This document shows, one piece after another, positions 6,508 through 33,139 of a stretch of DNA of 33,179 nt (its first letter is position 1; every line of letters starts with the position of its first letter). The translations under genes were made by a program, and so were the position numbers. The notes under the pieces were generated by a model that saw only the letters and a list, made by a program, of their open reading frames with translations, was not told the DNA's origin and did not search any database. Where the stretch lies: contig DATLYJ010000123.1 of the NCBI GenBank assembly GCA_035574915.1, positions 1-33,179 on the forward strand, given 5' to 3'. The DNA comes from Dehalococcoidia bacterium (lineage in GTDB: Bacteria > Chloroflexota > Dehalococcoidia > DSTF01 > WHTK01).

Positions 6508-6514
6508 CTTCGGG

Positions 6515-6630
6515 CCGGTGGCCAGAGCGCGGTGGCCCCACCCGTTCCCATCCCGAACACGGAAGTGAAACGCCGCAGCGCCGACGATACTTGGGGCGCA
6601 AGCCTCTGTGGAAAATAGGCCGCCGCCGGT
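6515..6630 (+). rRNA. rrf: 5S ribosomal RNA
   Basis: The stretch of about 116 bases shows the 5S signature: CCCATCCCGAACACGGAAGT, then GAAACGCCGCAGCGCCGA, and a terminal stem in which CCGGTGGC (6515-6522) pairs with GCCGCCGG (6622-6629). In the ribosome it belongs to the large subunit and binds L5, L18 and L25. It stands alone here: the only other rRNA gene in the window, 16S, begins 25 kb downstream, and no 23S is adjacent. It has its own promoter and intrinsic terminator, so it is an independent transcription unit. The ends are set from the terminal stem and may be off by a few bases. Confidence 0.96.
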
Positions 6631-6634
6631 ACTG

Positions 6635-6674
6635 TGAAGGCCTCGACGCGAGAGCGGGAGGCCTTCATCTTTTT
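6635..6674 (+). terminator. intrinsic terminator of the 5S rRNA gene
   Basis: A ten-pair perfect stem, TGAAGGCCTC (6635-6644) with GAGGCCTTCA (6658-6667), is followed by TCTTTTT. It begins about 5 bases after the 5S terminal stem. Confidence 0.92.
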
Positions 6675-6712
6675 CGGGCATTCGGGCATTCGGGCATTCG
6701 GGCATTCGGGCA
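6675..6712. repeat. 8-bp tandem repeat, about 4.75 copies
   Basis: The unit CGGGCATT is repeated four times without error (6675-6706) and then partly (CGGGCA, 6707-6712), directly after the 5S terminator. Short perfect arrays like this change copy number by replication slippage. No coding role is seen. Confidence 0.95.
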
Positions 6713-6846: not shown

Positions 6847-6867
6847 GACAGCGCTGTCTATAGACAG
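6847..6867. promoter_or_regulatory. overlapping palindromes, operator-like, over the riboswitch promoter
   Basis: Two perfect palindromes share a half-site: GACAGCGCTGTC (6847-6858) and CTGTCTATAGACAG (6854-6867). The half-sites read GACAG, CTGTC, GACAG in a row. The second palindrome contains the -35 hexamer TAGACA (6861-6866), so a bound protein would block polymerase. No regulator gene is visible in the window. Confidence 0.55.
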
Positions 6868-6889
6868 GCGGCAGTTGCGGTCATAGAGT
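6861..6889 (+). promoter_or_regulatory. promoter of the riboswitch and otsA-like transcript
   Basis: The -35 box TAGACA (6861-6866) differs from TTGACA at one base. A 17-base spacer leads to the -10 box TAGAGT (6884-6889). The predicted start at about 6896 coincides with the 5' edge of the riboswitch aptamer, which supports the assignment. Confidence 0.6.
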
Positions 6890-6896
6890 GATGAAG

Positions 6897-7032
6897 GCAA
6901 ACGGCCGAGTCTCCTTCCCGTCGAAGGAGAGCGGGGGAACCAAACATCGGGGTGCATCTCGCGAAAGCGAGAGGGGCAGTTCTCTTTCAGCCCTAACCCG
7001 TCAGCTAACCTCGTAGGCCACTGAAAGAGGAC
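6897..7032 (+). promoter_or_regulatory. c-di-AMP riboswitch (ydaO/yuaA class)
   Basis: The stretch carries the conserved blocks of this RNA class in order: a hairpin CTCCTTC/GAAGGAG, GAGCGGGGGAACCAA (6929-6943), GGGGTGCAT, a short hairpin with a GAAA-type loop, the stem arm TCTCTTTCAG (6981-6990), and the highly diagnostic CCGTCAGCTAACCTCGTAGGC (start 6998). The arm CTCTTTCAG (6982-6990) pairs with CTGAAAGAG (7021-7029), as in Bacillus ydaO. The class binds cyclic di-AMP and usually turns off potassium import or osmolyte genes when the ligand is high. Here an intrinsic terminator follows, and the downstream gene is an OtsA-like osmolyte synthase. The assignment is by recognition of the consensus, not by a covariance-model search. 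Confidence 0.92.
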
Positions 7033-7049
7033 GGGTTCTGGTCTCTGCT

Positions 7050-7081
7050 AAAGGCCGGGGTTGTCCTCCGGCTTTCGTTTT
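7050..7081 (+). terminator. riboswitch-controlled intrinsic terminator
   Basis: AAAG, then CCGG and GG (7050-7060), pairs with CC, CCGG and CTTT (7065-7075) around a TTGT loop with single-base bulges, followed by CGTTTT. An antiterminator is available: GAGGAC (7027-7032), at the 3' edge of the aptamer, is complementary to GTCCTC (7063-7068). Ligand-bound aptamer would hold 7021-7030 and let the terminator form, the expected OFF logic. Confidence 0.75.
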
Positions 7082-7183
7082 CCTCCTTGCTTGGGCGGGA
7101 GGACAAGCAGCCGGCCTGCGGAGCGCCAGGACCCTCCTCCCCAGTAGACGCCCTTCCCGCAAGGGCGACCGAAAGGGAGAAGC

Positions 7184-8716
7184 ATGCTCGCGCAGATTCA
7201 ACCCGCCCCCAGCCCAGCGCGCCCCGTCACCGAGCCCAGCCGCAGGCTGATCGTAGCCAGTAACCGCGGGCCCTTCGTGCACTCCTTCAGCGACAGCGGG
7301 CGCATCGTCCGCACTGCTGCCGCGGGAGGGGTCGGTACGGCCCTTACCGCGGCCAGCCACATGGCGCCCCTGGTCTGGCTTGCCGCGCCGGCGTCGGACG
7401 CGGACCGGATGCTCGCGATCGCTGACCGGGCGGTGCCACTGGGAGAAGCCAGCGTTGTGCGCTTTGTGGAGGTGCCGGAGGAGGCGCAGCGGCTGTCTTA
7501 TGAGGTTTTCGCGAACCCGGTCCTGTGGTTCGCGCAGCACGGCCTGACGTCCCTGCTGGAGCGCGACCTCCTGGGGCCGGAGGTCTGGCGCGCCTGGGAG
7601 CACGGCTACCGGCGCGTGAACCAGGTGCTTGCCGCGGCGATTATCCGCCAGGTGGATGAAGAGGGCTCGGACAGCGTGATGCTGCACGACTACCACCTCT
7701 ACCTCGCCTCGCGCACGGTGAAGGCCCTGCGGCCGGCAGTGACCCTGCAGCAGTTCGTCCACATACCTTGGCCTGCGCCACACGCATGGGAGGCGCTGCC
7801 GCCGAAGATGGTCTCGGCCATGTGCCGAGGCCTGCTGGGGAACGACAGCCTTGCCTTTCAGACGGAGGAGTCGGTCGAGCACTTCCTGGCAACGTGCTCG
7901 ATCTACCTTCGCGATGAGGTCGACGTGAAGGCCGCGTCCGGGGAGGTCAAGCGTAACGGCCGGACGACGACGGTCTGGTCGAACCCCATCTCAGTCGAAG
8001 TCAGGGCCCTGCGGGAAGAAATGGAGTCGAGTGAGGCCGCACGCTATCGCGCGCTGCTAGAGGTCGAGCGCGCGAGCTGCGAACGGCTGATCGTGCGGGT
8101 GGACCGGCTGGACCCGAGCAAGGACATCGCGGGTGGCTTTCGGGCCTACGAGCGGCTCCTGGAGGGTCGCCCCGAGTGGCGCGGCAAGGTCAGGTTCCTT
8201 GCCTTCCTGGTACCTTCGCGGACGTCAATCCCCGAGTACGCCAGCTACGCGCGCGAGGTTATGTCCCTGGTGGAGCGCATCAACCGCCGCTTCGGCACGC
8301 CAGGGTGGCAGCCGCTACGGGTGTTCCACGAGCACAACCGCCTCCAGGCCCTCGCCGGGCTCGAACTGTACGACGTACTTCTCGTGAACTCGGTGGCGGA
8401 CGGGATGAACCTCGTGGCGAAGGAGGGTCCTGTCCTGAACCAGCGCGATGGTGTACTCGTTCTGTCCACCAGCGCCGGCTCCTACGCGGAGCTGCGCCGC
8501 GGCGCGGTTGGCGTGCCGCCCGGGGACGAGGCGGCGACGTCGGCCGCCCTCGACCTGGCGCTGCGAATGCCCGCGGGCGAGCGCCGCGCCCGGGCCGAGG
8601 AGCTCCGCGCCTGTATCGAACGGCACCAGCTTGCGGACTGGCTGCGCCTGCTGCTCAAGGACATGACCATCAGGGGCTACGTCAGGGAGCTCTCGCGAGC
8701 AGGCAGCCACGGTTGA
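7184..8716 (+). CDS. otsA: trehalose-6-phosphate synthase-like glycosyltransferase (GT20)
   Basis: The 510-residue product matches the OtsA fold, which joins glucose from a nucleotide sugar to glucose-6-phosphate to give trehalose-6-phosphate. Visible motifs are SNRGP with GGVGTAL (residues 26-53), HDYHLYL (168-174), HIPWP (193-197), the donor-phosphate motif VDRLDPSKDI (Arg308, Lys313) and DGMNLVAKE (406-414). ATG 7184 has AAAGGGAG just upstream. No trehalose-6-phosphate phosphatase gene is adjacent, so the phosphatase must be elsewhere or the product may be another glucosyl compound such as glucosylglycerol phosphate. Expression is predicted to fall when c-di-AMP is high, through the upstream riboswitch and terminator. 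The symbol is assigned by family and the exact acceptor is uncertain. Confidence 0.88.
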   Translation: MLAQIQPAPSPARPVTEPSRRLIVASNRGPFVHSFSDSGRIVRTAAAGGVGTALTAASHMAPLVWLAAPASDADRMLAIADRAVPLGEASVVRFVEVPEEAQRLSYEVFANPVLWFAQHGLTSLLERDLLGPEVWRAWEHGYRRVNQVLAAAIIRQVDEEGSDSVMLHDYHLYLASRTVKALRPAVTLQQFVHIPWPAPHAWEALPPKMVSAMCRGLLGNDSLAFQTEESVEHFLATCSIYLRDEVDVKAASGEVKRNGRTTTVWSNPISVEVRALREEMESSEAARYRALLEVERASCERLIVRVDRLDPSKDIAGGFRAYERLLEGRPEWRGKVRFLAFLVPSRTSIPEYASYAREVMSLVERINRRFGTPGWQPLRVFHEHNRLQALAGLELYDVLLVNSVADGMNLVAKEGPVLNQRDGVLVLSTSAGSYAELRRGAVGVPPGDEAATSAALDLALRMPAGERRARAEELRACIERHQLADWLRLLLKDMTIRGYVRELSRAGSHG

Positions 8717-8746: not shown

Positions 8747-8775
8747 TTGACGCGCTCGGAGTCGGCTGGTAGCAT
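8747..8775 (+). promoter_or_regulatory. promoter of the ribosomal protein superoperon
   Basis: The -35 box TTGACG (8747-8752), a 17-base spacer and the -10 box TAGCAT (8770-8775) predict a start near 8782. This leaves a 5' untranslated leader of about 230 bases before rpsL. It is the only strong promoter I find ahead of the ribosomal genes. Confidence 0.7.

Positions 8776-31640: not shown

Positions 31641-33139
<1,499 letters not shown>

Follow-up and report, generated by a model that had tools for sequence, protein, structure and literature searches.

The locus raises the question of whether a bacterium of the Dehalococcoidia places the synthesis of a trehalose-type solute under the control of c-di-AMP, and by which read-out the signal would reach the gene. 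The window, by which we mean the whole stretch of 33,179 nt that was analysed, forms contig C123 of a draft genome (3.25 Mb, 96% complete). It is highly probable that a canonical transcriptional OFF c-di-AMP riboswitch here controls an OtsA-like GT20 enzyme making a disaccharide phosphate, most likely trehalose-6-phosphate.

In a covariance search of the window, positions 6893-7034 of the plus strand gave a full-length match to RF00379 (90.7 bits, E 3e-20, model positions 1-134 of 134). Membership was taken as a score at or above the gathering score, which is 38, together with a full-length match. A sequence-only reading of this DNA had proposed a ydaO/yuaA aptamer at this place and had named the covariance score as a check; the score lies far over the threshold. 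Judged by its sequence, the segment is a genuine c-di-AMP (ydaO/yuaA) riboswitch, for which ligand binding and switching are predicted. Its features, with those just upstream, are:

6861-6889, plus strand: promoter-like pair, -35 TAGACA, 17 nt, -10 TAGAGT (9 of 12 consensus matches; consensus match only)
6893-7034, plus strand: c-di-AMP (ydaO/yuaA) riboswitch aptamer (RF00379)
6979-6990, plus strand: pseudoknot 5′ strand (loop-to-tail), GTTCTCTTTCAG, located by complement and fold

The pseudoknot contains an exact 9-bp complement between 6982-6990 and 7021-7029 (duplex -10.9 kcal/mol), grows to 12 pairs with G-U pairs in the fold, and sits outside P1, which is a membership feature of RF00379. 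The arm between GGGGGAACC and GGGGTG, earlier described as unusually short, proved to be ordinary: its loop of 7 nt is the commonest length, found in 25 of the 72 related switches, out of 95, in which it was measurable. Two promoter-like sites were found against 0.1 expected in shuffles. The promoter-like pair extends to 6889, which would leave hardly any transcript ahead of the aptamer, and a transcription start at about 6896 would place the aptamer at the transcript 5′ end.

Upstream of this promoter-like pair, a 5S rRNA gene stands alone at 6514-6631, 25 kb from the 16S gene (31641-33139), and no match to 23S rRNA was obtained on the window contig; the rRNA genes thus look unlinked. A perfect 8-bp tandem repeat of five copies, TTCGGGCA, was also observed at 6673-6712, in the interval separating the 5S gene from the promoter-like pair.

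The ligand can be accounted for within the same genome. A diadenylate cyclase, the other check that the sequence-only reading had named, is present on contig C47 (PF02457, 144 bits). It is the only one in the genome; its frame reads as membrane-anchored CdaA and is followed by a CdaR-like frame. Production of c-di-AMP by the host, a membership feature of RF00379, is provided for by this CdaA-type cyclase gene. Three RF00379 copies were found in the genome, preceding the GT20 gene of the window, an otsB-GT20 operon on contig C172 and a gene for a GT2-like membrane glycosyltransferase on contig C183. The C183 copy (L035, G000:C183, 1508-1636, 64 bits) is without the conserved CUAAC after GUCAG and reads GTCAGAGGGCC; it may be altered or decayed. 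That the window copy is a decayed riboswitch which has lost c-di-AMP binding is very improbable: the draft genome comes from one source and its C183 copy departs from the conserved core, but the window aptamer keeps this core, and its 90.7 bits fall within the range of intact relatives.

From the 3′ end of the aptamer onward, two mutually exclusive pairings and a terminator were observed:

7021-7032, plus strand: switching strand CTGAAAGAGGAC, pseudoknot 3′ strand or antiterminator 5′ strand (fold, and swap test over 53 leaders)
7022-7076, plus strand: antiterminator helix of the ligand-free state, refined from 7027-7032/7063-7068 (-22.1 kcal/mol)
7051-7083, plus strand: intrinsic terminator, 10-pair stem 7051-7075, loop of 5, U-rich tail CGTTTTCCTC

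The intrinsic terminator that had been proposed was recovered at 7051-7075 with its tail CGTTTTCCTC, the U-tract being interrupted (CGTTTTCC). The antiterminator pair put forward earlier, GAGGAC at 7027-7032 with GTCCTC at 7063-7068, consists of exact complements and is best read, in the folding model, as part of a larger helix. The minimum-energy fold enlarges it to 7022-7076, so that the terminator 5′ arm is also trapped, and gives -22.1 kcal/mol compared with -17.8 kcal/mol for 7030-7082 folded with the terminator. In this fold the second partner of CTGAAAGAGGAC is the terminator loop and 3′ arm, reached through GAGGAC/GTCCTC plus GAAA/TTTC, while the segment after the switching strand, TTCTGGTC, traps the terminator 5′ arm. 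An expression platform with a terminator and a competing pairing is a further membership feature of RF00379. Because the 5′ strand of the 7022-7076 helix is also the pseudoknot 3′ strand of the aptamer, the arrangement points to a canonical OFF switch.

By energy, the antiterminator fold of the window was no better than that of shuffled sequences (z -0.12), and its duplex gave p 0.2 against shuffles. The pairing was also examined in 53 terminator-bearing leaders by a swap test, in which the mean pairing energy was -10.5 kcal/mol with the own terminator and -8.5 kcal/mol with that of another locus; none of 20,000 permutations was as low. In the 10 GT20 leaders the values were -14.0 and -10.4 kcal/mol (p 0.0001). 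These loci are related to one another, and the p-values of the swap test are guides and not exact. For the window itself the rank was no higher than the top 10% by tail and the top 31% by target. Own-locus pairing is preferred across the 53 leaders, which indicates that the pairing is kept while its letters change; the signal beyond chance for the antiterminator came from this cross-locus comparison and not from the energy of the window.

From these pairings we infer the direction of control, ligand binding being predicted, as follows. When the ligand is absent, CTGAAAGAGGAC would pair with the terminator loop and 3′ arm and the next segment would trap the 5′ arm, so that the terminator would be blocked and transcription would run on into the GT20 gene. 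When c-di-AMP is bound, CTGAAAGAGGAC would be held in the pseudoknot with 6979-6990; since only the terminator can then form, the hairpin at 7051-7075 would arise and transcription would stop. Osmotic stress or K+ limitation is expected to be accompanied by low c-di-AMP, which would in this way lead to more osmolyte synthesis. Published OFF precedents are the c-di-AMP riboswitches of kdpFABC (PMC6488665) and of the osmolyte gene ablA (PMC9337991).

A mainly translational switch, in which 7063-7069 (GTCCTCC) and CCTCC runs within 7082-7142 pair with the ribosome-binding site and the hairpin 7051-7075 is secondary, has to be weighed against this. Several CCTCC runs do lie between aptamer and gene, the full-leader fold favours a large downstream structure, and two other leaders look translational. 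The first is the C172 copy (L034, G000:C172, 2310-2439, minus strand), which precedes a trehalose-phosphatase gene and then a GT20 gene. No terminator was seen in its leader, and the ribosome-binding site AAAGGA, 7 nt before the otsB start, forms part of the pseudoknot strand CTGAAAGGA; ligand binding should for that reason block translation, and the otsB leader is likely under translational control. The second is the leader of L067, of the same family, with CCTTCCTC against GGAAGGGAG. In the window, however, the best fold leaves the ribosome-binding site free, and a terminator is present there and in 8 of the 9 other GT20 leaders of the swap test (that of L075 being doubtful). We regard mainly translational control of the window gene as distinctly unlikely and retain transcriptional termination as its read-out.

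The controlled gene and its translation signal are:

7172-7179, plus strand: ribosome-binding site AAAGGGAG, 4 nt before the ATG, pairing at -9.1 kcal/mol with the 3′ end of the 16S rRNA encoded on the contig
7184-8716, plus strand: OtsA-like GT20 glycosyltransferase of 510 aa (PF00982)

The gene looks monocistronic, since the next genes form a ribosomal-protein/translation-factor cluster with its own promoter-like site at 8747-8775. Membership of the protein in GT20 is firm (PF00982, 311 bits, gathering 32.5). Its score with the OtsA equivalog model TIGR02400 of NCBIfam was 288 bits against a cut-off of 565, and for this reason the protein is filed as an OtsA-like GT20 enzyme. The closest solved relative is 5lqd (228.6 bits), annotated as trehalose-phosphate synthase, which we take to be the GDP-glucose-using OtsA of Streptomyces venezuelae. 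The active site of E. coli OtsA was assumed to comprise R9, Y76, W85, D130, H154, R262, K267, R300, D361 and E369, and all ten residues are identical in the window protein when it is aligned to E. coli OtsA. Trp40 was left out of this set, as neither numbering puts a Trp at that position of E. coli OtsA. The trehalose-6-phosphate synthase-like gene of the sequence-only reading therefore stands as regards the GT20 fold and the catalytic residues and, with the score below the equivalog cut-off, is kept as a family-level reading.

The aptamer may be as described and the enzyme may make a different compound, for instance glucosylglycerol phosphate or some other alpha-glucoside phosphate. The score below the OtsA equivalog cut-off is in keeping with this, as is a match to the glucosylglycerol-phosphate synthase model (157 bits, far below its own cut-off); moreover, one trehalose phosphatase was detected in the genome beside three GT20 paralogues that share 46-49% identity, and the substrates of these paralogues may differ. 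No switch was found at the third paralogue, on contig C87. Against another product stand the annotation of the best solved relative, the conserved active-site residues and the phosphatase part or phosphatase neighbour of relatives under the same switch. We judge another product to be unlikely, and the protein is probably an OtsA-like GT20 enzyme with trehalose-6-phosphate as its product, its substrate and physiological role being putative.

Recurrence of the arrangement was observed in relatives. RF00379 is carried by 33 of 60 related genomes. Nine genomes of the same order have a GT20 gene above the cut-off, and in every one of them the switch stands before at least one such gene; in total it precedes 11 of 17 genes. 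In the switch-led proteins L050, L075, L123, L124 and L126, the second part, past the GT20 domain, reads by eye as a trehalose phosphatase (DYDGT, GDDRTDED); besides these five same-order genomes, a sixth in another order also has a GT20 domain continuing into a phosphatase-like part. GT20 relatives on Ktedonobacter-type, Thermomicrobiales and actinobacterial contigs showed no switch, and among 20 named contigs only the same-class one has it. G024:C59, of the same class, shares its GT20 and its switch score with SCTZ01000247.1, 'Chloroflexi bacterium FW602_bin.16'. Named relatives such as this one support the placement in the Chloroflexota that the sequence-only reading had called probable.

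Two further relatives were observed. At L067 (G001:C66) the switch-led GT20 frame breaks off after some 200 aa, which may reflect decay of the gene or an error of assembly. At L057 (switch at G049:C1:133477-133611) the downstream frame resembles, by eye, lysine 2,3-aminomutase, which in Dehalobacter has been reported as an osmolyte gene controlled by a c-di-AMP switch (PMC9337991).

The commonest target of the c-di-AMP riboswitch in the class is a GT2-like gene, preceded by 17 switches in the window genome and its relatives. It is represented on C183 (L035) by a gene starting at about 1829, has 16 related loci and encodes a membrane glycosyltransferase with QxxRW-like motifs; neither a Pfam match at E 0.001 nor a relative of solved structure was obtained for the family. 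Twelve of the 17 leaders (L055, L066, L068, L073, L074, L078, L083, L086, L093, L094, L120 and L122) have a compact hairpin of at most 34 nt with a T-run, in which the pseudoknot 3′ strand is the hairpin 5′ arm, for example GAAAGGTCGGCCACCGACCTTTT in L055. This compact shared-arm hairpin was present in none of 16 GT20 leaders, with hairpins of at most 34 nt counted in the comparison; the automatic label also caught long antiterminator folds of at least 42 nt in some GT20 leaders. If the pseudoknot is ligand-dependent, binding should keep the terminator from forming, since its 5′ arm is the pseudoknot strand, and the gene should be switched ON. We tentatively suggest, as somewhat the less probable reading, that in this class c-di-AMP switches act with opposite signs at the two ends of the sugar economy, trehalose-type genes being turned OFF and the recurrent GT2 gene ON. 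No ON-type c-di-AMP riboswitch came up in a partial search of the literature.

Already known are the class of riboswitch, its OFF logic and the link to osmolytes. The recurrence of the switch ahead of trehalose-type genes in this branch of the Chloroflexota appears not to have been described previously: the searchable literature contained no such use throughout a Chloroflexota order, and an earlier mention in the primary ydaO target surveys (Nelson 2013, Block 2010) is possible. The findings would extend c-di-AMP control from solute and K+ transport and the one osmolyte precedent in the literature covered, ablA, to trehalose-type solute synthesis in an uncultivated Chloroflexota lineage, in which the arrangement would amount to a lineage-wide regulon. 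Within one genome, a single type of aptamer also seems to be read out in two ways, by termination at the GT20 gene and by occlusion of the ribosome site at the otsB-GT20 operon, which allows a direct comparison.

The window switch shares with RF00379 riboswitches the aptamer, the loop-to-tail pseudoknot, the downstream intrinsic terminator and the predicted OFF control; the targets in the literature covered are a K+ transporter, a cell-wall hydrolase or an ion-linked gene, whereas here the target is a GT20 trehalose-type gene. The kdpFABC switch of Bacillus thuringiensis (PMC6488665) belongs to the same class, has a terminator in its expression platform and acts as an OFF switch on transcription, but it controls K+ uptake, while the window switch would control solute synthesis. 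In the Dehalobacter ablA tandem Na+/c-di-AMP riboswitch (PMC9337991), high c-di-AMP likewise ends transcription of an osmolyte-synthesis gene, although two aptamers and N-acetyl-beta-lysine are involved there, and one aptamer and a disaccharide here. With OtsA (5lqd and E. coli OtsA) the window protein shares the domain family and the catalytic residues; it differs in scoring below the TIGR02400 cut-off, and its donor and acceptor are putative.
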